A stretch of 20,376 bases of DNA from a virus: positions 1 to 20,376 of IMG/VR virus record IMGVR_UViG_3300034104_002928; one strand, written 5' to 3'. Position 1 is the first letter of the stretch, and each line of letters opens with the position of its first letter. Position numbers and translations under genes: made by a program. The notes beneath the pieces were generated by a model that did not search any database, was not told the DNA's origin, and saw only the letters and a program-made list of their open reading frames with translations. Positions 1-15,938 of the stretch are shown here, one piece after another.

Positions 1-209
1 TGAGCTGGCAGCCGACCAACTACATGGGCGAGTGGCAGTGGGTGACTGGTGCCTACAAGCTCGATGTGGATTGCGCCGATCCTCTGGAGAAGAAGGGTCA
101 GCACTACGCTGAGTTCGTTCATGCCGTGGAGCCAGTGTTCACCAATCAAGGAATGACGATTATCTTCCGTCGTTGCACAGGCTCGCTGACACAGATCATT
201 TGTAGCTGA
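1..209 (+). CDS. C-terminal part of a phage structural protein, possibly major capsid protein
   Basis: The reading frame is open from the window edge (first whole codon at position 3) and ends with TGA at 207-209, so the start and most of the protein lie to the left. About 68 residues are visible. They are rich in aromatic and charged residues and contain the stretches GEWQWVTG, DPLEKKGQHYAEF and a closing FRRC. This pattern reminds me of C-terminal ends of capsid-type proteins in uncultured podoviruses, but it is recollection, not a search. A strong intrinsic terminator follows after 21 bases, which fits the end of a highly expressed transcript. If this is the capsid gene, it lies on the strand opposite to the scaffold candidate at 4913-6085, which would be unusual. 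It could equally be another abundant virion protein. Confidence 0.6.
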   Translation, partial: SWQPTNYMGEWQWVTGAYKLDVDCADPLEKKGQHYAEFVHAVEPVFTNQGMTIIFRRCTGSLTQIICS

Positions 210-4848: not shown

Positions 4849-4902
4849 TTCAAAGCAAAATCCCCCGGTGGCTTCGAAACCATCGGGGGATATTTGTTTC
4901 CA
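4849..4902. terminator. Bidirectional intrinsic terminator between convergent operons
   Basis: A 12-bp stem (arms 4860-4871 and 4880-4891, ATCCCCCGGTGG against CCATCGGGGGAT with one wobble pair) encloses an 8-base CTTCGAAA loop. On the plus strand it is followed by TATTTGTTTC. On the minus strand the same stem is followed by TTTTGCTTTG. It lies between the plus-strand lysis-like genes and the 3' end of the minus-strand head operon, so it should stop transcription from both sides. Confidence 0.9.
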
Positions 4903-4912
4903 GCGCAGCGGC

Positions 4913-6085
4913 TCAGCGTCCTAACGACTTCAGAACGCTCGCAACGAAGTCCTCGCTCTTGGCGTTGTTCGTGTTGGCAGGACGAGAACCACCGCTGACA
5001 GCCTTCGAGCTAACTCCCGGCTCGCTGCCACGGTACTTCGCCAGTTCGGCTTGTAGGCGTTTGTTTACCTCAACCTGAGAATAGAGAAGCTCGCGGTACT
5101 TCGGTGCGGCAGCGGCCCAAAGAGCGGCCTTGGCGAGGTCTTCTTCGCTGTTCTCTCCGTTGAAGATCTGCTGCGCGAGGCTGAGACGCTGGTTCAGCTC
5201 ACCATTCCATTCCTCATCGCCCTCACGCGGCTCGAATATTTCAAGAGCGCGAGCATTCTCGCTCACCTTCGCCCAGGTCTTACTGGCCGACTCCAATGCA
5301 GCCTTCGTCCCCTGCTCGTTGTCCTGCTGATACTTCGAGATGATGGCGTCGTAATCGGACTTAGCCTCGGACATCTCCGCCGCTTTCTCGCCGTTAATCT
5401 CGTCGTAGCGAACGATCAGCGCGCCGAGCTTGGCTTTCTTGGACGGCGAAAGACCGTCAACGATGTCGTCGATCTGCGAGTTGCGGTAATCGCTCTCGGG
5501 CGACTTGAGTAGGCCAACAAGCCGTTCTCCATCGGTGCCGACAAGACCCTTCACCGATTCAAAGACGCCATTGATCTTGCCCTCATACTTCTTAACGAAC
5601 TCAGGGTGACGCTCGATGTCGAGCAATCGAACACGCTCAGAAAGCGCGTCACGCTCCTCCTGCAAGGTCTTGAGCTGCGACTCAAAGTTCGGATTAGCGG
5701 TCTTGCCAGCTTTAAGCTCGTCCAGTTGCTTGGCCAACTGCGCCTTCTCCTCCTTGATCTTGCGGAACGCGTCAGCGGCCTTCGTAGACTTGATTGTCTC
5801 GGGGATATCGGAATCAGCGTCCGTAGAAGTCGGAACCTCGGCGGCGGCGGTAGCCTGCTTCTTTGAAGAACCAAACAAACGCTCGATGTCCTTCTCGGAC
5901 TTGCTGGTTGGCTTGGTCGTTTCGGATGCCGCAGGCGTTGCAGCTTTCTTAGGCTCCTCGGTAACCGGAGTCGATATGCCCTCATCGGCTTCGGCTCCCA
6001 TGCGATTGAATGCGTCGAGAATCGAATTGCCAAAATCAGGCTGCGACGCCGGATTGGTCAGCGGAGAGTTCAGTGGTACGTCCAT
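4913..6085 (-). CDS. Putative head scaffolding protein
   Basis: A 390-residue protein from ATG 6085. Residues 1-95 are Ala/Pro/Ser/Thr-rich and likely disordered. About 100-160 is a strong coiled coil rich in Lys, Glu and Leu (for example IKEEKAQLAKQLDELK). Acidic helical segments follow. The last ~30 residues are Gly/Ser/Asn-rich and end in FVASVLKSLGR, a short basic helix like those with which scaffolds bind coat protein. Composition, size and position at the end of the terminase-portal operon all fit a scaffold, which would guide procapsid assembly and then leave. Sequence identity to a known scaffold cannot be judged here. There is no Shine-Dalgarno; the start context is AAATTATG. The gene ends at the bidirectional terminator. 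Confidence 0.78.
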   Translation of the reverse strand: MDVPLNSPLTNPASQPDFGNSILDAFNRMGAEADEGISTPVTEEPKKAATPAASETTKPTSKSEKDIERLFGSSKKQATAAAEVPTSTDADSDIPETIKSTKAADAFRKIKEEKAQLAKQLDELKAGKTANPNFESQLKTLQEERDALSERVRLLDIERHPEFVKKYEGKINGVFESVKGLVGTDGERLVGLLKSPESDYRNSQIDDIVDGLSPSKKAKLGALIVRYDEINGEKAAEMSEAKSDYDAIISKYQQDNEQGTKAALESASKTWAKVSENARALEIFEPREGDEEWNGELNQRLSLAQQIFNGENSEEDLAKAALWAAAAPKYRELLYSQVEVNKRLQAELAKYRGSEPGVSSKAVSGGSRPANTNNAKSEDFVASVLKSLGR

Positions 6086-6091
6086 AATTTG

Positions 6092-6346
6092 TTAATATTG
6101 TTTTTCGAAGGTTGCTTCAGGTTCCTTAGTTGTTTCATTCACCGACAATTTTCGAAGGTTTTCAAGACAATGCGCGTAGCCAGCGGTTACACCGGCAGCG
6201 AAAATAATGTCTGATTCCTTCGCTCCATGAGACGGCATTGGCACCGGCATGGATTCAGCGACGATACGGATTGCCATGCGTAAGAGCGGAGTCTGCAACA
6301 GCTTAGAGAATTCGGCACTCTCACCGCTGGTCATCCACTCCGCCAT
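6092..6346 (-). CDS. Small protein of unknown function upstream of the scaffold
   Basis: An 84-residue protein from ATG 6346. An upstream in-frame ATG at 6415 would overlap the previous gene by 62 bases. I prefer 6346 because a TGAGGT Shine-Dalgarno sits 4 bases before it and overlaps the TGA of the previous gene. The product begins MAEWMTSGESAEFSKLLQTP, then a helix with RMAIRIVAESMP, and a central AAGVTAGYAHCLENLRKL helix. It is probably all helical. I do not know its family; small genes between portal and scaffold in podoviruses are mostly uncharacterised. Six bases separate it from the scaffold start. Confidence 0.75.
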   Translation of the reverse strand: MAEWMTSGESAEFSKLLQTPLLRMAIRIVAESMPVPMPSHGAKESDIIFAAGVTAGYAHCLENLRKLSVNETTKEPEATFEKQY

Positions 6347-6350
6347 ATTT

Positions 6351-6356
6351 ACCTCA
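6351..6356 (-). promoter_or_regulatory. Shine-Dalgarno overlapping the upstream stop; decides the start at 6346
   Basis: On the minus strand TGAGGT followed by AAAT precedes ATG 6346. Its TGA is also the stop codon of the beta-propeller gene, a compact termination-reinitiation arrangement. Confidence 0.65.
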
Positions 6357-7697
6357 GGCAGATTCTTCAGGTCCGATTTCTGGGTCTTCGTTGAGCCTTT
6401 CAGCCAATTTATCATACTTTGTCTTCTTGTTTCGTTTCAGTTTATGCCTCTGCGGAATCGGGTCGAGAACCTCGTCTAGCTTGATCGGTTTCTCAAGCGT
6501 GACGACATCGCGTTTAGGTCGAATCACCTTTGTCACCTCCAGCATGTCGGCCAATGGCAGCTTGATGTATCCGCAATCAACGTCGTTGATGCCGTACGAG
6601 ACGACAAAATGACTCTTCGCGCTGTCGTAGAACGCTCCGCACGGGAATACGACAGCAGGCAATCCCGGCCACCAGTCCTGCTGATTCGTGCCGGTGAGAA
6701 GCGGCAGCGTCGTCATGCGGACGATGCGGAACGGAGCCTTAGACTCGAAGGCGTACGCACCCATGTAGTAGCGACGCTTCTTGTTGATCCACGGCAATGA
6801 GCTGTGGAAGAAGGTCCAGTACAAGCCATCGACCAGAATGGGGTTGGAGCCGCCGCGCACCTCGCCAAATTTCCAGAGCGGATTGAACTCGTCGGTGACG
6901 TACTCCGCTTCCTTCTCAAGACGCCCATTAAGGCGCACTACGACATGAGGATTGGCCGAATACACCATGTGTGGCGTGTTATCGTGGACGAAGTAGAGCC
7001 AGTTCTTCTCATGGCCATCGTTCACCATCGCCTGCGCGTAGTTGTTGCCGTAGATCGGGTCGAATCGGGCGACGTTCAGGAACTGCTTGTCCAAGACGAA
7101 CATCGCCTGATGCGCGTAACTCTTGAACGGCACAAATGTGCAGCAGCTTAGTCCGTACTTGTCGCCGAACTTGACCACTCGCGGATCTTCGAACTGCTCG
7201 CCTGGAATGTGCGAGGTGAGGTTGATCAACGCTTTTTTGATGGCCCCAAGATCCTTGGTCAGCTCGAAGACAACGATGTCGTTCTTCTCAAGGTAAACGT
7301 CCTCATCCTTCTCGCGCTTATTGCGGCAACGTCGGGCGAAAAGAAGGATCTGACCGCTCGGTTCCTGAACGATTGCAGGGTTGAAATAGTAGGTTCCAAC
7401 CTCCTCAGGAAGCGTGATTTTACCAACCTCCCAGTCGCATTGTTCGGCCAGCTTGGGTACGTCGTTTTTTGCGTAGCTCATTAGAAACTCGGCTGCGAAT
7501 TTGATTTCGTCGTAGAGAGCAAGCCAATGATCGCGCTCCTCGCGGACCTCGGTCAGATGCTCCTCGTGTTCTTTGGTTCGAATCTCAAGTGTCTTCTGCA
7601 AATCCTCGATCTGCATCAGCAAATCGGCCTGACCATCACCGCCATTTGCAAATCGTTTGAGAGCTTTAAGAGACAGTTCTCGGATGATGTCTTTCAT
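6354..7697 (-). CDS. GH130-like five-bladed beta-propeller protein, putative carbohydrate-active
   Basis: A 447-residue protein whose ATG shares one base with the TAA of the preceding gene (TAATG at 7695-7699). Residues ~20-65 form a coiled coil. Residues ~100-385 look like a GH130 or GH43-type beta-propeller: YYFNPAIV near 103-110, FEDPRVVKFGDKYGLS near 169-184, KNW at 231-233, RGGSNPILVDG at 281-291, FFHSS at 297-300, YYMGAYAF at 310-317 and VSYGINDVD near 366-374. GH130 enzymes phosphorolyse or hydrolyse beta-mannosides; related propellers occur in glycan operons with unknown activity. The tail (about 395-447) is Lys/Arg-rich then acidic. With two GT25-like genes directly upstream, a role in processing or binding the same glycan is likely. 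Catalytic activity cannot be claimed. Confidence 0.75.
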   Translation of the reverse strand: MKDIIRELSLKALKRFANGGDGQADLLMQIEDLQKTLEIRTKEHEEHLTEVREERDHWLALYDEIKFAAEFLMSYAKNDVPKLAEQCDWEVGKITLPEEVGTYYFNPAIVQEPSGQILLFARRCRNKREKDEDVYLEKNDIVVFELTKDLGAIKKALINLTSHIPGEQFEDPRVVKFGDKYGLSCCTFVPFKSYAHQAMFVLDKQFLNVARFDPIYGNNYAQAMVNDGHEKNWLYFVHDNTPHMVYSANPHVVVRLNGRLEKEAEYVTDEFNPLWKFGEVRGGSNPILVDGLYWTFFHSSLPWINKKRRYYMGAYAFESKAPFRIVRMTTLPLLTGTNQQDWWPGLPAVVFPCGAFYDSAKSHFVVSYGINDVDCGYIKLPLADMLEVTKVIRPKRDVVTLEKPIKLDEVLDPIPQRHKLKRNKKTKYDKLAERLNEDPEIGPEESA

Positions 7698-8326
7698 TAT
7701 GGATACAATTTTGTGTTCTCCTGCGTCGCGAGCCTCGGAAGAATCCCGTAAAAGTTCATCCTAGGCATCGAATCGACCAGCATCTGGATGTCGATTGGAC
7801 CCCAAACCTTCTGGTTCGTTTCGAGGAGTTTGCAGACACCTTCGTAATTTACAAGGTAAGCATGCGTACACATGCCGCGAACGAGCTTGTAAAGGTTCGA
7901 CGCGATGTAGCCGTGGTCTTCAATCGGGTCGGCGCAGCAGCTTCCGATGTAGACGACATGCCAATCGCTCGGGAGATAGTCCAGATTGTCGGCCAGCTTT
8001 GCCTTCCAGTCGGAGCATGTGAACTCAACGTCATCCTCGACGATGAGGAATGTGCGATGATCGGTTATCTTCGACTCAACCATCCACTTGATGGCCGACC
8101 AGACAGAGAAATGGCTGAGTCCGGCGACGATTGTTTTGACTTTCGCCTTCTCCTTCTCGCGTGTGTGGTAGTAATCGGTCGATATGCCGCAGTTCTCAGC
8201 CCTGAATCCGTACATCGGAACCGCATCGATTCCGAATGACTTCATGTAGCGAATGCAGCGTCGCTCCTTCTCGCTCTCAGGCTTCGAGACGATGAAGCAC
8301 GGCGTCTTTTCGAGCTGTAGTTTCAT
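7697..8326 (-). CDS. GT25-like glycosyltransferase (second copy)
   Basis: A 209-residue protein whose ATG overlaps the upstream TGA (ATGA at 8323-8326). It has the GT25 layout: an N-terminal strand CFIVSKPESEKERR, AGLSHFSVW near 68-76 (the GT25 SH element), the acidic IVEDDVEF with Glu97-Asp98-Asp99 that binds metal and nucleotide sugar, and GPIDIQM near 177-182. GT25 enzymes transfer galactose or related sugars to lipopolysaccharide or, in animals and giant viruses, to collagen hydroxylysine. It shares GSCCA, SNL, CTHxYxV, LETN and PID blocks with the gene at 8918-9520 and must be a paralogue. At ~209 residues it is slightly short for the family but has the core. Donor and acceptor are unknown. 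Confidence 0.85.
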   Translation of the reverse strand: MKLQLEKTPCFIVSKPESEKERRCIRYMKSFGIDAVPMYGFRAENCGISTDYYHTREKEKAKVKTIVAGLSHFSVWSAIKWMVESKITDHRTFLIVEDDVEFTCSDWKAKLADNLDYLPSDWHVVYIGSCCADPIEDHGYIASNLYKLVRGMCTHAYLVNYEGVCKLLETNQKVWGPIDIQMLVDSMPRMNFYGILPRLATQENTKLYP

Positions 8327-8913
8327 CGGTTCGGGAGGATGTAGATGATGCCGCGACGCGCGCCGGTAGAGCGGCTGGGGTGGTTGTAGTAGAAGCTGTA
8401 GCCGTACTTCTGCGTCAACGTCTTGGCGCGGTAAATTGCGTCCAGCTTGTCCTTGATGTAGCCGAGACAGATGTCGTGGCCGTTGTAGCTGTCGTAGCCA
8501 AGCTGTCCGGTCGGTTCCTTGAAGTCGTGGATGGCGATAACTGGATGCAGGTCGTAGCGATTAATTGCCTCAAGCTCTTCGAGCAGCGGCAGGTAGTCGT
8601 TCCAGTGAGCGTCGAGAAAGAAGATCGTGTCGTGTCCAATTCCGTGATGCGGAATGAACCAGTTCATGCAGGCATCACTGCTGCCCTCGAACATCTCGAC
8701 GTAGACATTCTCGCGCTTGAACTTCTCCTTAGCCTTCTCAACCAGATCATGGTTCAGCTCGCACGAAACAGTCTTGAGGAAGTTCTTGGCCAACCAAACG
8801 GTGGTGTCCGCTTCGTGAGTGCCGGTTTCGACAGCGGTCGTCAGCTCGAAGCGTTCTTTGAGGTAAAGAAACTCCTGCTCGATGAACGTGTCTCCATTGA
8901 AAGGTGAACCCAT
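8323..8913 (-). CDS. Class I SAM methyltransferase-like protein (ETGT type)
   Basis: A 196-residue protein from ATG 8913; a TTG at 8952 would overlap the preceding gene, so I reject it. The start lies four bases after the upstream TAA, with the context AAATTATG. The SAM-site motif is VETGTHEADTT near residues 28-38, then SCELNHDLVEKAKEKF with the acidic residue expected to hold the ribose. FFLDAHW near 98-104 and AIHDF follow, as in the class I family whose members carry ETGT-x-x-G-x-TT and LDAHW. One Gly of the usual ETGTYxGxTT is Ala here. Members are often in polysaccharide clusters. It could methylate a sugar hydroxyl or a protein; the acceptor is not visible. Confidence 0.75.
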   Translation of the reverse strand: MGSPFNGDTFIEQEFLYLKERFELTTAVETGTHEADTTVWLAKNFLKTVSCELNHDLVEKAKEKFKRENVYVEMFEGSSDACMNWFIPHHGIGHDTIFFLDAHWNDYLPLLEELEAINRYDLHPVIAIHDFKEPTGQLGYDSYNGHDICLGYIKDKLDAIYRAKTLTQKYGYSFYYNHPSRSTGARRGIIYILPNR

Positions 8914-8917
8914 AATT

Positions 8918-9520
8918 TTAGTCGGCCAAAGGACAGTCTTCTTGATCGGCAACTCGCGGAAAAATTGTGAAGCATTTCAGATGCTGGCGGCTCTTGAAGT
9001 ACATCTGCAAATCGATTGGAGCGAAGACCTCTTCGTTCGTCTCGATGAGAGTCTTGAGAGCCTTCTTGCGGACGATGTAGCAGTGAGTGCAAAGTGGCAT
9101 TCCTTCGAAAAGGTTTGAATCCAGCTCGCGTGAGAGCTTTCCATGCGCGCAACAGGAGCCGGGATAGAGAATGTCCCAATCCTCAGGCAGCTTTGTCAGC
9201 GCACGTTCGATTGTTTCGCGCCAATGCGGACGGAATAGGATGTCGTCCTCTAGAACCATCACCATGTCCGGCGTGGAAGGATCGAAATCCAGCGCGTTCC
9301 ACAGCATCCAATGGGACATGCTGCATCCAACGTGCTTGGAGCAGATGAGGTAGCCTGAGCCGGGGGCATCTATCTCGTACGGAATGCTCGCTTTCAGGCC
9401 AGACTTCGCGCCGTTCAGGCCATAGAAAATGCGGTAGTCCGTGACTCCAGCGGAATCAAGGTTTCTTTGTAGGCGCGGGATGCGAGAACTGCCTCGCATC
9501 GTGATAACGACCGTTTGCAC
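8918..9520 (-). CDS. GT25-like glycosyltransferase (first copy)
   Basis: A 200-residue protein starting at GTG 9520, four bases after the previous stop. An internal ATG at 9499 would remove the first beta strand (TVVITMRG), so the GTG is more likely. GT25 features in order: the N-terminal strand with SSRIPRLQRNL, GCSMSHWMLW at 65-74, MVLEDDILF with the Glu91-Asp92-Asp93 metal and sugar-nucleotide site, and FAPIDLQM near 166-173. It aligns through its length with the gene at 7697-8326 (EDD, LP-x-DW, GSCCA, SNL, CTHxYxV, ETN, PID, PR-x-A-x-QE). Likely acts in the host cytoplasm. Possible acceptors are a virion protein, host lipopolysaccharide or a precursor glycan. Confidence 0.87.
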   Translation of the reverse strand: MQTVVITMRGSSRIPRLQRNLDSAGVTDYRIFYGLNGAKSGLKASIPYEIDAPGSGYLICSKHVGCSMSHWMLWNALDFDPSTPDMVMVLEDDILFRPHWRETIERALTKLPEDWDILYPGSCCAHGKLSRELDSNLFEGMPLCTHCYIVRKKALKTLIETNEEVFAPIDLQMYFKSRQHLKCFTIFPRVADQEDCPLAD

Positions 9521-9524
9521 GGGG

Positions 9525-10142
9525 TTATTTCAGTTTTCGATAGATAGCAAAAACGCTCTCGCTCAGATCAAATCGCGAAACAAATTCGCAGCGTTTCAGG
9601 ACGAACTTGAGAGCAGTCTGGGTCGATTCCCAGTTCACATCGTCCATGACCAGATATCCGCCAACCTTGAGCTTTGGAAGCCAGTTGACGACATCGCTCG
9701 TAGACGGCCATTCGGCGTGATTGGCGTCGATGTGAACCATGTCCATGTCGGGCAGAAATCGCGACGCATCCCATGAGGACATGCGGCAGAACTGAATCTG
9801 CTTTACGACCTGCGCGCGAACGCAATGACCAACGAAAGATTCGTAATGCTTGTCCAGATCGAGTGTCGCCCACCACTCCTGATTGGCATTCGTCTCGTCG
9901 TCGATGCAGTCCTCTTTTTTCCAAGAATCGATAGCGTAGACGGTTCCGCTTCCGTTCAGCTTGCAGGCTTGGGCGAGTGCGAGCGTGGACTTGCCTTCGA
10001 AAACACCAACTTCAGCGATGCGCTGCGGTTTCGTTTCGAGAACAAGTTTGGCGATTTCCAAACCTTTTTTCGGATCGCACCAACCGCCCATCTTCGGGAA
10101 GTTGTCGGCGATGAATTGAACGATGTTTTCTTCGTTTCCCAT
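9525..10142 (-). CDS. Class I SAM-dependent methyltransferase (Methyltransf_24-like)
   Basis: A 205-residue protein from ATG 10142, with AGGGA 8 bases upstream and the context GAATTATG. Motif I is RIAEVGVFEGKSTLALAQA (residues 41-59), with the ExGxxxG core intact. TVYAIDSW follows with Asp72 at the ribose position, then MVHIDANH and KVGGYLVMDDVNW, matching the Methyltransf_24 pattern (D-x-x-H then GG-x-x-x-x-DD). Family members methylate sugars, cephalosporins and other small or polymeric acceptors. It starts five bases after the portal stop and opens the five-gene cassette. The second methyltransferase downstream is of a different subtype. Acceptor unknown. Confidence 0.85.
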   Translation of the reverse strand: MGNEENIVQFIADNFPKMGGWCDPKKGLEIAKLVLETKPQRIAEVGVFEGKSTLALAQACKLNGSGTVYAIDSWKKEDCIDDETNANQEWWATLDLDKHYESFVGHCVRAQVVKQIQFCRMSSWDASRFLPDMDMVHIDANHAEWPSTSDVVNWLPKLKVGGYLVMDDVNWESTQTALKFVLKRCEFVSRFDLSESVFAIYRKLK

Positions 10143-10147
10143 AATTC

Positions 10148-12397
10148 TTATCCCTGACGCGCCAAGTTGGACTCGGCAGTTGCATTCGCTCGCTGAATAT
10201 CAGCGGTTGTCTTGGCATTCCGGCGTGACAGATCAGCCATCGCCTTCGTGTTCTGACGCTGAATGTTGGCCATAGTCTCGGCATTCTGGCGAGCGATTTT
10301 CGCCTGAACCTCCGCATTCATCACTGCAGTCTTCGGATCGACACCCTGCTGGATAGCCATCGCTTGCTGCTGCTGCGCCATCGCCTGCTGCTGTTCGGCC
10401 AATAGCTGACCAAGCTGCTCAACAGTCTGAACAAGCATCTGGAGCTGCTGAGCGTAAGCATCAACTTGAGGACGACGAGTAGGATCGGTGGAGAGACGAG
10501 CCAGATGATCCTGAACGTGCTGACCGATACCTTGCAGGAAGAGCATAATCTCCTGCGGATTACCGCCCTGCTGGATCGAGGAAGCAGCTTCGTTCGCCGC
10601 CGCAAGATGCGTGTCGATGTGAACGATTTGATTCTGCGTGTCCGTGACGATTGCCATGTTGCCCTGGCGCAGCGACGAATGCTCCAGAACAGCCAGCGCG
10701 GTCTGATCCTGAATTCGCGAAGACTGGATCTGAGTCGGCAGATACCGATCAACCATTTGTTGGCCAACCTGAGCGGCGATGTAGTCGCGCAAGAGGCTGA
10801 CTTTGCCACCCTCTGGCAGAGAACCAAGAAGTCCGAGCAGAGAACCAAGGAGCTGCTGCTTCGCGAACTGAGAACCTTGGCCGACCGTGCGAGTCGCTTC
10901 CACGAAGTCGATGTCCAGCATGGCTTGAACCGGAACGCCGCGTTCGGCGCAACGACGCTGGAACTCAATCGCGTCCTTATCCGACTTCGTAATCGGGTTC
11001 AGGTTGGGATTGGAGGCTCGGTTGTACCGCTCTTCGAAGAAGGAATCGAGCTGGTTGTAATACCGGCTGAGCTGCGTCTTACCGATTGCTGACTGCTGTG
11101 CCACGATGGCCTGGATTTCAGTCGCAGTTCGTGGGTTGCCAGCCGGTTTGTTGAGCGATTGGCGATACTGAGAGAGATTGCCTTGAAGAACATTCTCAAG
11201 GTCCGCGTTGACCGCCATAGGAGCGTCCAGAACGCCAGCAATGTTCTGCTGAATGACTTCGTAGTCTGGCGGGAGAATGGCATACGGTCCTTGCTGAACG
11301 ACGCTCGTCTTGCTGAGAGCGTTCGGGTTAAGGGGGCGGAAGAGAATCTGGGTGCGAGCGAATGCGCTGTCCACCATCGAGCAGCGGAGCCTGTTCTTCA
11401 GCTCCATCGCCTGAAGCATCTTGATGCCAAGACCCTTCACACCGTGATGCTCGCCATCACCACGGTCGTAATACATCGGATGAATGATCTGCTCCCACCG
11501 CTTGTAACGGCGCAGCTTCCGGTACATGAAGTTCTCGCTGTCCCGCTCATCGATGATGGCATGGCTGATCTGACCATCGAACTCCTTGTAGAAGATGTGG
11601 GACATCAGCACGACCTCTGACCGTGCAGAGAACGTGATGTCGTTCGAGCGAAGCTGGCGTTGGAAGAACTCCCAATCGTACTGAACGCCGGAACGGTACG
11701 GCTCAGGCATCGCAGCGCGGATACGCTGGCGAACGTAATCTACGTTCCAGCCGGCAGCAGTCGCCGCCTGCTCGTCTTGGATCTTCTCGAACAAGTCATC
11801 GACGCCCATGCGAGTGCGGACGCAGGCTACCTTCCAATCGCTGACATTGGACTTTGTGCCATCGGGGACGAGAAGATCCGTCGCCATGATGGCCTTGCAC
11901 CGCCAGTTGGAGCCGTCTTCAAAGATCAGCGGACCATCGCCAATGAGGACCATCTCACGCTGCGAGAGCTGCATAATGTAGTCGAAGTCCTTGTCCAGCT
12001 TCTGGAGACGGTCGAACTCCTCGGTGATAATCTTCGACCACTCCTCCCGCTTATCCATGTCGTTGCCGTAAGCGGTGCGAATGTTGGCGTAGGTAGGAAC
12101 CTCAGCGAACACATCGTAGAAGGCTGACATGGCCAACGTGAGGAACGCTTCCGACTCGCGGAAGTTGACGTTGGTACGGAACGCTTGGTTGTTACGACGA
12201 AGCTCTGCCGGATTGTACGGAGGATTGCCGTCAACAAGACCACGGAGCTTTGCGCGGGTGCTGTTCCGCAGCTCGTCGGCCATGATGAGCTTTTGGAATA
12301 TCTCGCGAGCCGATGCCGCGTCGGCAATACGAGTTTCGGGAGCTTTACCCTCCTCGTTAATGGTTTCGAGCGGCAGTTGGGCTAGGTTTCCGTACAT
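10148..12397 (-). CDS. Portal protein (podovirus-type)
   Basis: A 749-residue protein from ATG 12397, overlapping the stop of the Cys-rich gene by 16 bases. Portals form the dodecameric ring at one capsid vertex through which DNA enters and leaves. The visible layout is an N-terminal helical region with RAKLRGLVDGNPPYN, ELRRNNQAFRTNVNFRE and FYDVFAEVP, a wing region up to about residue 300, then YDRGDGEHHGVKGLG, an HTH-like and crown region, and a long C-terminal helical part. Residues ~650-690 are Gln-rich. Residues 699-749 are five consecutive 11-residue units that should form a helical barrel. Length and order, directly after the terminase, support the call; the tyrosine and Gly-rich motif around 311-325 is common in podoviral portals. 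Confidence 0.92.
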   Translation of the reverse strand: MYGNLAQLPLETINEEGKAPETRIADAASAREIFQKLIMADELRNSTRAKLRGLVDGNPPYNPAELRRNNQAFRTNVNFRESEAFLTLAMSAFYDVFAEVPTYANIRTAYGNDMDKREEWSKIITEEFDRLQKLDKDFDYIMQLSQREMVLIGDGPLIFEDGSNWRCKAIMATDLLVPDGTKSNVSDWKVACVRTRMGVDDLFEKIQDEQAATAAGWNVDYVRQRIRAAMPEPYRSGVQYDWEFFQRQLRSNDITFSARSEVVLMSHIFYKEFDGQISHAIIDERDSENFMYRKLRRYKRWEQIIHPMYYDRGDGEHHGVKGLGIKMLQAMELKNRLRCSMVDSAFARTQILFRPLNPNALSKTSVVQQGPYAILPPDYEVIQQNIAGVLDAPMAVNADLENVLQGNLSQYRQSLNKPAGNPRTATEIQAIVAQQSAIGKTQLSRYYNQLDSFFEERYNRASNPNLNPITKSDKDAIEFQRRCAERGVPVQAMLDIDFVEATRTVGQGSQFAKQQLLGSLLGLLGSLPEGGKVSLLRDYIAAQVGQQMVDRYLPTQIQSSRIQDQTALAVLEHSSLRQGNMAIVTDTQNQIVHIDTHLAAANEAASSIQQGGNPQEIMLFLQGIGQHVQDHLARLSTDPTRRPQVDAYAQQLQMLVQTVEQLGQLLAEQQQAMAQQQQAMAIQQGVDPKTAVMNAEVQAKIARQNAETMANIQRQNTKAMADLSRRNAKTTADIQRANATAESNLARQG
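10151..10303 (-). repeat. 11-residue coiled-coil repeats at the portal C-terminus
   Basis: Residues 699-749 read AKIARQNAETM, ANIQRQNTKAM, ADLSRRNAKTT, ADIQRANATAE and the partial SNLARQG. The pattern A-x-[IL]-x-R-x-N-x-x-x-x repeats at 11 residues, so it is a hendecad coiled coil. Confidence 0.85.
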
Positions 12398-13002
12398 GGT
12401 CGTTTTTTCCAGCAGTGAGCTGGCAAGTTTGCGTTCTCTGTAGCGTCCGTAAATTTATGGAGCGTTTCAATGGGAAACCACACCATGCTTCTGATGAAGC
12501 AACCACAAAATTCACAGCTTTGAAGCTGGTCGTCTAGTGGCGTTGTCCCGTGTTGAGAAAGTGTCCTGACAGCCTCCTTGAGGACGCGAGCGTTGCATCC
12601 GGTGCATCCGAGTGGTTTCCGATTGAACTGACATCCGGCGCAAATGCTCGCTCTTCGAATCGCTTCCTCCTGATCCACTTTGCCACCGCCAACGGTCAGC
12701 CCATGAATCAGGCTCATGCTGAAACGGATAACGTCTCCGATCTGAAGAGATTTCAAACCTTTTGGCCTGGGAATCTCAACTTCGTCGTAAGAGCAGTCGG
12801 CACCGTTACGACACTGATACTCGGTGATTAAGATGTCGAGGTTGGTGGGAACCTTGACTGCGTTGGCCGCGTAATGGTTGCGGACGAACTCGCGGAGCTG
12901 CGGCAATGAACCGGCGGGTATCTCGATGCCGGTTTCAGGAACGCGGTAGTTCCATCCGCCGGGAATGACATTGTGTTCATTGAGGATCTTGTAGCCGCTC
13001 AT
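12382..13002 (-). CDS. Cys-rich putative zinc-binding protein between terminase and portal
   Basis: A 206-residue protein. ATG 13002 overlaps the terminase TGA (ATGA at 12999-13002), which fixes the start against the longer frame to 13053. The N-terminal half is mixed and unrecognised (GGWNYRVPETGIEIPAGSL). The C-terminal half has ICAGC (Cys121, 124), GCTGC (133, 136), CEFCGC (163, 166, 168) and two later Cys (197, 203), a zinc-ribbon-like double CxxC arrangement with an extra FCGC. Cys64 and Cys70 form a further pair. Its position, coupled to the terminase and portal, suggests a role in packaging or portal assembly, or DNA binding. Iron-sulfur binding is an alternative. I do not know a characterised member. 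Confidence 0.78.
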   Translation of the reverse strand: MSGYKILNEHNVIPGGWNYRVPETGIEIPAGSLPQLREFVRNHYAANAVKVPTNLDILITEYQCRNGADCSYDEVEIPRPKGLKSLQIGDVIRFSMSLIHGLTVGGGKVDQEEAIRRASICAGCQFNRKPLGCTGCNARVLKEAVRTLSQHGTTPLDDQLQSCEFCGCFIRSMVWFPIETLHKFTDATENANLPAHCWKKRPCTET

Positions 13003-14678
13003 ACGTCCCCGTCGTAGTAAATGGAGTCTGCGTCCCTCACCAGCTTTTCCCATACCTTGTCAGCTTTTGTTGCTCGCGGTTCAAATGAGGCGGTTTTACG
13101 CACCAGATCAAGCAAGACAACAGCAGCATCGGCCAAGTCAGGCGATTTGCCGGTCCTTTGCTTCATCACGGTCTTCGATTCGACGGATATCTTTCGCTTC
13201 CCATCGTCGAACATTCGCGCACAGAACTCTTGCAACGTCTCAATGTCCATGCCGCCGACTCGCTCCTCGACGACCCATTTACGCATCGAGAACCAGAGTT
13301 CCGTCACCTTGCGGTCGTATGCCTCATTGCATGGCCTACTATCCTCGTCGCTAACCGGAATGGTCGATGGAGAGCCGCCGAACTCGACGCGATGAACCAC
13401 ACCCCATTCTCTGGTCAGAATGTCCGCCAGACCGCCACCCTCACCGCTTGAATCGAGAGCGAACTTGTCAGGTGGAACGCCTCGCTTGTTGCATTCCTCT
13501 TTAACTCGATTGGCTATCTGGTAATGGACCGGCTCGGTGAGCTGCGCGTTGGGTGATATCTGGATGATATCCTGAAAGAGTATGCTCAGCTTATCGTTAG
13601 CGGTGCCGACTTTGGCAAAGCGAAGGATACATCTATCACCTCCGAAGCCGGGGTCGAGAGCCGCGACAATCTGGACATTGGTCGTAAACGTGAGCTTCTT
13701 GTTCGGCGAATGCGTGTCGATGAGCGACTCGGACAGCACGGTCTTAACCATACCGTCAGGACTCCAGAATCCGCGTGTGTACTTCCAGAACGTAGGACTC
13801 TGTTCGCCCTCATGGCGCATTGCCGACAAGACCTGATCTTGGGTGATGAGGTATGGGTATTTCGTTCGCCCCTCGGTGATGTTCGGCGACTTCATGCCGT
13901 CGAAGCGTCGGCACATGCCGCGTTCCGTCAGCCAATGCTGATCTTCAATCGTGACGCTGCGCCACCCTTTTGCCGGTGTGCAGAATCTGCCGTGCGGATC
14001 AAATTTTGATGCCGGATTCCCGATGACGAGCATCTTAAACTCGCGGCAACCCTTGGAGAGGTTCGTGCAAGCCTCGAACGCTGCTTCAGGCGTATCCGTC
14101 GCTTCGTCGATGATGACCATCACCCGTTCTGCGTGAATACCCTGAATGTTGGCCACTGCCTTCGAGGTGTTGCCTTCTGCGACTGCGATAGCTGAAATGG
14201 AATGCCGGTCGTCACCTTTAACAGCCTGTAACGCCATCTTCGAATCGACCATGTTACCAGGGAATCCGCGCGATTTCCGAACAAGATCCTGAAGATTGGC
14301 CCACATACGCTTTCGGATCATCTTCGCGGTCGTCGATGTCAGAACGACTGTTGACTTGGAAGGATTGGCCAACCACCAGACTGTCGCGAAAAGCGTTGCT
14401 CCGAAGGTCTTTCCGCTCGCTCCGCATCCCGCCCATCCAACGTAGTCATGCTCGCAGAGGCTTTCGACTTGCGCTTCCAACCACGGGTTCCAACTCATCT
14501 TCGGCCAGAGCATTTTCGTCGCATTCTGAAAATGTTCGAAAGTGCCTAGTCCACCCTCGTTTGGTTGGAGTCGATTTCGGAAAGCGTACAGCTCTAGTTC
14601 AAGATCAGGAATCTTGACGGGCGAGCGTATTCCGTACTTGTGGTCGATCAATGGATTCTCAGACACTTGCTCTGCCAT
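12999..14678 (-). CDS. terL: Terminase large subunit
   Basis: A 559-residue protein from ATG 14678, supported by AAGG seven bases upstream; ATG 14693 is an alternative. The N-terminal ATPase has Walker A GCGASGKT (residues 84-91), Walker B VMVIIDEATD (186-195, Asp191-Glu192) and a coupling motif around MLVIGNPAS. The C-terminal RNase H-like nuclease has ALDPGFGGD (Asp342), ALDSSGEGGG (Asp409) and SPDLADA (Asp514 and Asp517 region). It pumps DNA into the procapsid through the portal and cuts concatemers. Length is normal for the family. It is the first gene of the minus-strand head operon, and diverges from the fibre gene at 14733. No small terminase was recognised nearby. Confidence 0.95.
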   Translation of the reverse strand: MAEQVSENPLIDHKYGIRSPVKIPDLELELYAFRNRLQPNEGGLGTFEHFQNATKMLWPKMSWNPWLEAQVESLCEHDYVGWAGCGASGKTFGATLFATVWWLANPSKSTVVLTSTTAKMIRKRMWANLQDLVRKSRGFPGNMVDSKMALQAVKGDDRHSISAIAVAEGNTSKAVANIQGIHAERVMVIIDEATDTPEAAFEACTNLSKGCREFKMLVIGNPASKFDPHGRFCTPAKGWRSVTIEDQHWLTERGMCRRFDGMKSPNITEGRTKYPYLITQDQVLSAMRHEGEQSPTFWKYTRGFWSPDGMVKTVLSESLIDTHSPNKKLTFTTNVQIVAALDPGFGGDRCILRFAKVGTANDKLSILFQDIIQISPNAQLTEPVHYQIANRVKEECNKRGVPPDKFALDSSGEGGGLADILTREWGVVHRVEFGGSPSTIPVSDEDSRPCNEAYDRKVTELWFSMRKWVVEERVGGMDIETLQEFCARMFDDGKRKISVESKTVMKQRTGKSPDLADAAVVLLDLVRKTASFEPRATKADKVWEKLVRDADSIYYDGDV

Positions 14679-14732
14679 AGTTTGGCCTTGCATTAGTTGT
14701 CGTTGGACTTGAGGTTCTGCGAAAGGAAAATT
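14679..14732. promoter_or_regulatory. Divergent control region between head and tail operons
   Basis: About 54 bases separate the terminase start from the collagen-like fibre start, and both operons must be transcribed outward from here or from further in. I could not find convincing -35 and -10 boxes on either strand; a TTGGAC at 14703-14708 on the plus strand has no good partner. A phage-specific promoter or read-through are possible. Confidence 0.45.
14722..14730 (+). promoter_or_regulatory. Shine-Dalgarno for the collagen-like fibre gene
   Basis: AAAGGAAAA followed by TT sits directly before ATG 14733. It decides the start against the in-frame upstream initiator at 14697. Confidence 0.65.
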
Positions 14733-15938
14733 ATGCCGTCGCAACTTGTTTCTTCATCCGGCTGTTGCCAGCCTTGCGACTCCGAGCCGGTAGTCGTGAA
14801 TATCCCTGGTCCTCAAGGGGCAGCGGGTACTAACGGTACCAATGGCACGAACGGTATTGATTCGTTCACCTACACGACTGCGGCATTTTTTGTCCCCGCT
14901 CTTGGAGCATCGGTTGTGGTTGCGGTCGATAACACCGAGTTTTTGCCTGAATCAGTCGCCGGACAGTTCTTCGTTTCGATTCAGGGTCTTGGCTACATGC
15001 AGGTTACCTCGGTCGATGGCCTGCTGTTGACCTTGCAGAATCCCGCCGCTGGAGTTCTTGGCATTGCCAATGCGGTTCCGACTACGTTGATTCCGTCCGG
15101 TTCGCTCATCACGCTGGCTGGAGCGATTGGTCCTACGGGTGCTGCCGGTGTGTCTGGCGGTGCGCCGGTTGGAGCTTCTTACATCTGTCGCACAGCCGAT
15201 GGAACTCTGACGAACGAGACAGCTCTCGATTCGCTTGCCTCCGGTTACATGAAGACCGCCGGATCGGGTGGTGCTGGCGTCGTCTCGACCGTTGCGACGG
15301 TTCCGGTTGGCGACATCAGCGGCACGTTGCCAATTGCTAAGGGTGGAACGAATCTGACGACCGCTCCGGCAAACAAGATTCTGGTGGGCGATGGAGCCGC
15401 CTATCTCCAGAAGGAAATCGTCGGAACACTTCCGATTGTCGTCACGAATTCGACTGGAAACATTACGCTGTCTGCGCCTTCGATTGTTCCGTTCAGCTAC
15501 GTCACGTTTACGCGGAGGGTGACTGGAATTGGGGCTGCAAATGCTCCGCTTTTGCCCACAGCGACAACGACAAATCCATTTAGCCTAACCGCCTATCCAT
15601 TAGCCTCTTACGCTGGCATTGACACCGCTTCAGGGTTCAACTCTGCGCTGGGTCGTTTTACGGTTCCATACACCGGATACTACACGATTGATGTGGTGTT
15701 GAATCTTGACGCGGTGACAACCACCGCCTCCGTAAGAGTTTTTATTCGCAAGACCGGCTCCGACATAATCGCATCGTTTCCGTTTAACGTAACAAGCTCT
15801 GGATTTCAGCCGATATCCATCAACTACGTTGATAACGCGACTTCGGTAACCGATTATTACGAAATTTTCATCACGACCACGCACGACCTTTACGTCGATC
15901 AAGGCTCTTCATTCTCCGTCCAGCGGATTCAGGCTTAA
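14733..15938 (+). CDS. Collagen-like tail fibre with C1q-like C-terminal head
   Basis: A 401-residue protein. Residues 1-25 contain three Cys. Residues 26-43 are six Gly-X-Y triplets (GPQ, GAA, GTN, GTN, GTN, GID) and 130-144 are five more (GAI, GPT, GAA, GVS, GGA), between beta-rich segments. Around 200-215 there is DISGTLPIAKGGTNL, a trimeric fibre-type segment. The last ~145 residues look like a C1q/TNF jelly roll: SGFNSALGRFTVPYTGYYTIDV is close to the C1q core F-x-x-x-G-x-F-x-x-P-x-x-G-x-Y, followed by alternating strands and a terminal strand. Collagen plus C1q heads form trimers in eukaryotes and in bacterial BclA-like filaments. It likely binds the host cell. First gene of the plus-strand tail operon; three bases to the next start. 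Confidence 0.88.
   Translation: MPSQLVSSSGCCQPCDSEPVVVNIPGPQGAAGTNGTNGTNGIDSFTYTTAAFFVPALGASVVVAVDNTEFLPESVAGQFFVSIQGLGYMQVTSVDGLLLTLQNPAAGVLGIANAVPTTLIPSGSLITLAGAIGPTGAAGVSGGAPVGASYICRTADGTLTNETALDSLASGYMKTAGSGGAGVVSTVATVPVGDISGTLPIAKGGTNLTTAPANKILVGDGAAYLQKEIVGTLPIVVTNSTGNITLSAPSIVPFSYVTFTRRVTGIGAANAPLLPTATTTNPFSLTAYPLASYAGIDTASGFNSALGRFTVPYTGYYTIDVVLNLDAVTTTASVRVFIRKTGSDIIASFPFNVTSSGFQPISINYVDNATSVTDYYEIFITTTHDLYVDQGSSFSVQRIQA

Follow-up and report, generated by a model that had tools for sequence, protein, structure and literature searches.

Exchangeable glycosyltransferase and methyltransferase blocks between a portal gene and a constant GH130-like gene in a group of metagenomic phages

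What are glycan-type enzymes doing inside the portal operon of a phage, and do they belong together as one unit? The question is raised by a 20,376-base virus record known from metagenome sequence (IMG/VR IMGVR_UViG_3300034104_002928; the whole stretch is henceforth referred to as the window). A sequence-only reading had proposed that five genes, encoding two methyltransferases, two GT25-like proteins and a GH130-like protein, form a single cassette there. The open reading frame (ORF) list, profile searches, hhalign comparisons and the predicted fold of one methyltransferase bear out the five genes and their place, on the minus strand, but the single cassette does not hold: each of the two methyltransferase–glycosyltransferase (MT–GT) pairs is a block that can be exchanged, and the GH130-like gene next to them is constant. 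The slot and its borders are as follows (all on the minus strand):

10148..12397: portal (a name given by the sequence-only reading), upstream border of the swap slot
9525..10142: MTa, S-adenosylmethionine (SAM) methyltransferase matching Methyltransf_24 (Pfam PF13578, E 7.5e-20), first gene of block c2-c1
8918..9520: GTa, GT25-family glycosyltransferase (PF01755, E 5.1e-10) with a GTG start, block c2-c1
8323..8913 (listed ORF 8952-8323): MTb, class I SAM methyltransferase by predicted fold, block c4-c3
7697..8326: GTb, GT25-like glycosyltransferase by homology to GTa, block c4-c3
6354..7697: GH130-like protein (PF04041, E 2.5e-9), constant backbone gene beside the swap site

Clusters of cassette proteins are named c1 (GTa type), c2 (MTa type), c3 (GTb type) and c4 (MTb type); c8 is the GT25 member of another block and c9 a further glycosyltransferase.

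Block exchange in the portal-to-GH130 slot

Relatives were fetched from metagenomic stretches matching the GH130-like protein (the best 80 of 135) and the portal (the best 80 of 168), a sampling in which divergent members are therefore under-represented. The 136 loci with both borders reduced to 75 distinct portal-to-GH130 sequences. After removal of c10 (a single, apparently spurious ORF), these contained ten orders of glycosyltransferase and methyltransferase genes, built from a few exchangeable blocks:

MTa-GTa-MTb-GTb (the window's own order): 28 of 75 regions
DXD-GT, MT, MTa, GTa: 18 of 75
GT7C-like, MTb, GTb: 8 of 75
DXD-GT, MT, GT25, MT24: 8 of 75
MTa-GTa alone: 4 of 75
DXD-GT, GT25, MT24: 4 of 75
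four further orders: 2, 1, 1 and 1 regions

At least one glycosyltransferase and one methyltransferase co-occur in all ten orders. When three of the variable genes were used as queries, portal and/or GH130 adjoined the gene in 81 of the 82 loci found (contigs repeat among them); because such scans find close relatives only, the genes are not thereby shown to be unique to the slot. The sole exception is a 128,784-base contig (L201), which carries a weak, 26% relative of the c9 glycosyltransferase with neither portal nor GH130 beside it.

How often the blocks are exchanged can be read from the portal tree (74 of the 75 rows, leaving out L063). Cassette labels require 28 changes on this tree, compared with a minimum of 9 and a mean of 41.9 after shuffling, and every one of 200 shuffles required more than 28. 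Given that 28 lies above the minimum but below every shuffle, cassettes swap often yet partly follow descent. When portals of a pair were at least 96% identical without being the same, the gene order matched in 51 pairs and differed in 51 (67 of the 75 regions were used, leaving out eight without a full portal and one identical pair). For example, the portals of loci L006 and L084 are 98.1% identical and their GH130 genes 96.6%, yet these loci carry GT7C-like/MTb/GTb and MTa-GTa-MTb-GTb, respectively.

By contrast with the blocks, the borders do not change. GH130 lay downstream of the portal in 56/56 portal loci with at least 4.5 kb of downstream sequence, and the portal upstream of GH130 in 48/48 loci that extend over 5.5 kb in that direction (some contigs occur in both sets); outside the count of 56 are ten portal loci without GH130, on contigs ending within 1.7 kb of the portal. 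We thus conclude that the locus is not an assembly artefact. One of 16 large records (G016) has no GH130 match, and its locus stops about 1.1 kb past the portal. Since it is present whatever block fills the slot, the GH130-like gene is a constant backbone gene and not a variable part.

Cassette enzymes and the GH130-like protein

Assignment to GT25, Methyltransf_24 and GH130, as first read from motifs, was upheld by profile searches for GTa (40 bits against a cut-off of 24), MTa and the GH130-like protein, and not for the other two enzymes. GTb fell below the GT25 cut-off (PF01755, 18.9 bits against 24, E 1.4e-3), yet hhalign shows its homology to GTa (probability 99.9, E 4.5e-32). MTb had no Pfam match above cut-off, with a weak Methyltransf_25 match in all 10 aligned members; its AlphaFold2 model (predicted local distance difference test score, pLDDT, 72.9) had as best Foldseek hits NovO (8.5e-10) and then catechol O-methyltransferases (COMT), and we predict from this model that MTb is a class I methyltransferase.

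Simple motif patterns were present in every distinct copy checked across eight of the nine cassette clusters (all but c9). Specifically, EDD, the acidic motif of GT25, was found in c1 (48/48), c3 (37/37) and c8 (12/12), and the SAM motif in c4 (32/32) and c2 (45/45). Median pairwise ratios of nonsynonymous to synonymous substitution (dN/dS) were 0.05–0.11 across the nine cassette clusters (0.083 for c2), with 0.06, 0.08 and 0.10 for the constant portal, GH130 and scaffold-like genes. The cassette genes are under purifying selection and, given that their motifs are also kept, they look like working genes.

These observations bear on one alternative, namely that the enzymes tailor small molecules, or are cargo linked to neither the virion nor the host surface. 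The nearest folds of the MTb model, NovO and COMT, would suit small-molecule tailoring; nevertheless, the constancy of the slot between portal and GH130, the purifying selection and the joint presence of both enzyme types in every order all speak against it, and of the explanations discussed here we give it the least credence.

The GH130-like protein matches PF04041 with 37 bits (cut-off 26) over residues 97-390, corresponding to profile positions 28-319 of 320, and scores far under the equivalog cut-offs that NCBIfam sets for two GH130 enzymes. Its first ~95 residues lie outside this match and are helical in a low-confidence model (the AlphaFold2 model, built from 17 close homologues, had a pLDDT of 38.4 and was unusable for comparison with the five-bladed propeller of GH130 enzymes). 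N106, E170-D171 and D372 are invariant in 17 homologues. In weak alignments with solved GH130 chains, D171 aligns with the Asp of ED(P/A)R or YDPR, N106 and D372 align with the N and D of 7fip, and the basic HRR stretch of that phosphorylase aligns with an invariant HDN, in which H298 is kept; GH130 phosphorylases use three basic residues to bind phosphate. Judged by motif, D171 would be the counterpart of the invariant Asp142 of BT3780, itself outside the alignment, and N106 and D372 the putative counterparts of its Asn74 and Asp363; these BT3780 residues are described as holding the minus-1 sugar or acting as candidate acid (PMC4599007). We also considered GT108, a family of GH130-like glycosyltransferases; literature support was not found, and the idea is not used as evidence here.

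Operon context and the possible target

The cassette lies in a compact minus-strand row which runs terminase, 223-aa protein, portal, MTa, GTa, MTb, GTb, GH130-like, 107-aa protein and scaffold-like protein. The features outside the slot are:

14744-12999, minus strand: terminase, head of the leftward gene row
12382-13053, minus strand: 223-aa cysteine-rich (CxxC) protein, overlapping both the terminase and portal genes
6092..6415 (alternative start 6346), minus strand: 107-aa protein with no assigned function, downstream of the GH130-like gene
4913..6085, minus strand: scaffold-like protein (again a name from the sequence-only reading), last gene of the leftward operon
4860..4891, no strand given: 12-bp stem followed by a T-rich tail, past the last gene of the leftward operon
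14697..15938, plus strand: fib1, fibre-like protein containing short Gly-X-Y runs of collagen type, exploratory candidate acceptor
3-209, plus strand: C-terminus of the presumed major capsid gene

Genes had been described as overlapping or at most five bases apart, which is the case at four junctions: portal-MTa (gap of 5 bases), MTa-GTa (gap of 4), MTb/GTb (overlap of 4) and GTb/GH130 (overlap of 1). At the remaining one, the listed GTa and MTb ORFs overlap by 35 bases, a figure that becomes a 4-base gap if MTb starts at ATG 8913. This start is likely, rather than TTG 8952, because a methionine (M14) stands there in 10/10 aligned MTb rows and the ORF begins there in 7/10. Matches to operon-internal promoters and terminators showed no excess over chance (8 terminator-like matches in the region compared with 10.8 in shuffles). 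The placement between portal and scaffold is correct insofar as the slot lies inside the portal operon, but the 107-aa ORF also stands between the GH130-like gene and the "scaffold" (it follows GH130 in the relatives displayed too, where no count was made). The presumed major capsid gene does not belong to the row and lies on the strand opposite the portal and scaffold-like genes. A full copy of that gene in a relative (L162:2609-3856) identifies window positions 3-209; the copy has no Pfam or PHROG match and takes its name from place and size. In Pfam and PHROG profile searches, the "portal" and "scaffold" proteins had no convincing family match, and the 223-aa protein had no Pfam family and a weak PHROG match.

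Among 50,697 phage records there was no match to the portal, MTa or MTb, while GTa matched three records, the GH130-like protein and c9 matched one each, weakly, and terminase matches were all below 60% identity. Neither the portal alignment nor the GTa alignment found a relative in one genome from each of 84,980 species. At 92,531 bases, one record (L097) has roughly double the length of the other large ones (42-48 kb) and may be a concatemer, a chimera or a larger genome. In one relative, genes for a C5 cytosine DNA methylase and for ThyX lie apart from those for structural proteins (L164:2036-3049, minus strand; L163:17858-18535, minus strand).

What, then, might the cassette modify? In our view, the slot is probably a virion-glycosylation cassette whose enzymes put a short glycan, methylated in part, on a protein of the particle. 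Its soluble glycosyltransferases, presumably made late like the portal, would draw on the nucleotide sugars of the host and load the sugars onto that protein, be it capsid, portal or collagen-like fibre, and the accompanying methyltransferases would cap or tag the added sugars. Different blocks (MT-GT25, GT25-MT, DXD-GT plus MT, or GT7C-like GT) fill one constant slot; recombination, probably via the conserved portal and GH130 flanks, would replace them, such that glycans would differ even between near-identical phages. The GH130-like protein, constant as it is, may prime, remodel or trim a beta-mannosyl-type sugar in the shared part of the glycan.

Alternatively, the enzymes might act on the host surface, altering sugars of lipopolysaccharide (LPS) or capsule to block superinfection or to stop progeny sticking to debris, in which case the cassette would vary with host glycans. 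GT25 is a named LPS family, and phrog_2835 is classed as moron, auxiliary metabolic gene and host takeover. Serotype-conversion gtr clusters carry a membrane flippase and a membrane glycosyltransferase. However, no membrane protein was seen among the window's cassette genes, in whose products no transmembrane-like stretch was found (highest 19-residue hydropathy 1.12; the scan covered the cassette proteins and would have missed a flippase encoded outside it), and the genes lie inside the portal operon and hence are presumably late. Although glycosyltransferases of pelagimyophage variable regions are read as acting on the host surface (PMC7029224), the closest positional precedent is virion glycosylation, and we consider a host-surface role the less likely of the two, though a real possibility.

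A third possibility is hypermodification of DNA, i.e., addition of sugars to a hydroxymethylated base as a defence against restriction. Phage glycosyltransferases of such function have been described, and the C5 cytosine methylase of one relative would fit. Against this, the 16 large records (some maybe incomplete) contained neither Tet/JBP (PF12851; 0/16, with control genomes also having none above cut-off) nor ThyA/dCMP-hydroxymethylase (PF00303; 0/16, compared with 9/14 controls positive), and the MTb model resembles small-molecule methyltransferases. Judging by these gene contents, DNA glycosylation is unlikely, and hypermodification as a whole deserves very little weight.

If a virion protein is the acceptor, as we think probable, fib1 is an exploratory candidate, as it appears to co-vary with cassette type. 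In pairs with portals 95-99.9% identical, fib1 was more alike when the cassette was the same (permutation p 0.0065), as was GH130 (p 0.001), while the same test gave no cassette link for terminase, p223, p617, p233 or the scaffold-like protein (p 0.13-0.49); results cover 12 proteins (there is none for S74), 7 of them permuted, with non-independent pairs, multiple tests and some relatedness left by within-cluster shuffling. The GH130 association may be hitch-hiking, or simple linkage to the adjacent swap site. Linkage alone is a poor explanation for fib1, since it lies beyond the terminase on the other strand. A collagen-like Gly-X-Y run of at least 3 triplets occurs in 53 of 54 distinct complete fib1 ORFs; the 45 fib1 rows listed include two short fragments, one of which lacks a run, while the run in the other (L099) looks off-frame. 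Of the 12 proteins compared between near-identical phages, fib1 and p233 varied most.

A bolder version of the virion reading, which we regard as possible though tentative, is that the slot is a phage "serotype locus": near-identical phages would trade GT–MT blocks by recombination at this one fixed place, and every combination would put its own methylated glycan on one and the same particle protein, most probably fib1, with the GH130-like protein making or remodelling the shared core sugar. If true, this would be the phage counterpart of bacterial O-antigen loci. That half of the near-identical pairs differ in gene order points to selection for a changing sugar on the particle, or to very frequent recombination here. 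Matched pairs of phages that are nearly identical apart from their blocks could reveal which sugar each block adds.

Comparison with known systems

Three known systems resemble parts of the locus. In the first, GH130 mannoside phosphorylases and mannosidases (Lin0857, the beta-1,2-mannobiose phosphorylase 7fip and BT3780; roles as given in PMC4599007), the likeness lies in the domain match and the aligned motifs, whereas the phage protein has an extra N-terminal region, HDN in place of the HRR of 7fip, and a phage context. The second are GT25 collagen glycosyltransferases (human COLGALT1 and mimivirus R655), which are longer and remote but include the nearest solved sequences to GTa and GTb: for GTa these were R655 (3.6e-6) and then procollagen galactosyltransferase 1 (0.08), and across both enzymes only the match of R655 to GTa was significant. 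R655 is itself a putative collagen glycosyltransferase (PMC9546862). Pelagimyophage hypervariable regions, the third, likewise vary in glycosyltransferase content, but as portrayed in PMC7029224 they span tens of kilobases with tail fibres, have GT8 as the most represented family and are not portal-adjacent slots.

The closest likeness is to cluster O mycobacteriophages (Corndogvirus: Corndog gp35-gp38, Catdawg gp33-gp36). A search with c8 matched 96 phage records; 79 belong to Mycobacterium phages, some of whose glycosyltransferases we take to be from cluster F. The Catdawg genes run from terminase through HNH and portal to an O-methyltransferase and three glycosyltransferases, followed by capsid protease, a small protein and capsid, and thus, as here, an O-methyltransferase and glycosyltransferases (one of them GT25) are tightly packed between the portal and the capsid-assembly genes. 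In Pfam, the four Catdawg enzymes gave, respectively, TylF/Methyltransf_24 above cut-off, no match, a weak GT2/GT7C match below cut-off and GT25 just above it. The methyltransferase/glycosyltransferase arrangement is shared across cluster O, where capsid modification has been proposed, and the four Corndog enzymes were detected in infected cells and not in virions (PMC4351075). Corndog gp38, of which Catdawg gp36 appears to be the counterpart by gene order and equal length (621 bases), and Che8 gp110 are called essential for capsid glycosylation in PMC12363180, citing Freeman 2023, and these phage-encoded glycosyltransferases are reported to act on capsid and tail-tube proteins (PMC12363180, PMC12619734). 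The earlier suggestion of a methylated glycan on a virion protein would therefore have a close precedent in this cluster, where virion glycosylation is reported from experiment; here the glycan is a proposal drawn from gene content.

Several observations weigh against extending this precedent to the present group, on which neither an isolate nor proteome or glycan data came to light. GT25 enzymes act on LPS too. GT25 likeness to Catdawg gp36 is remote (hhalign 93.7 for c8, 91.5 for GTa and only 16.6 for GTb), the c8 tblastn match spans one third of c8, the Catdawg methyltransferase compared with the MTa/c7 profile gave 3.7%, i.e., no match, and none of the genes in the Catdawg stretch carries a GH130-like annotation. 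Because GTb and the methyltransferases fail profile comparison, the likeness to Catdawg is one of slot and enzyme type, with GT25 homology remote at most; that c8 and GTa are remote homologues of gp36 is plausible from these alignments.

Even so, the slot and enzyme types of a few glycosylated mycobacteriophages recur in a group without detectable portal similarity to the phage records searched. Cluster O differs in its Mycobacterium host, its long tail and the presence of a capsid protease, and block swapping is absent from the descriptions of the cluster in PMC4351075; titles and abstract openings of the papers listed in our literature searches likewise yielded no such swap slot in a phage. 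Compared with known portal-adjacent virion glycosylation, the new elements here are the swapping of blocks and the constant GH130-like partner.

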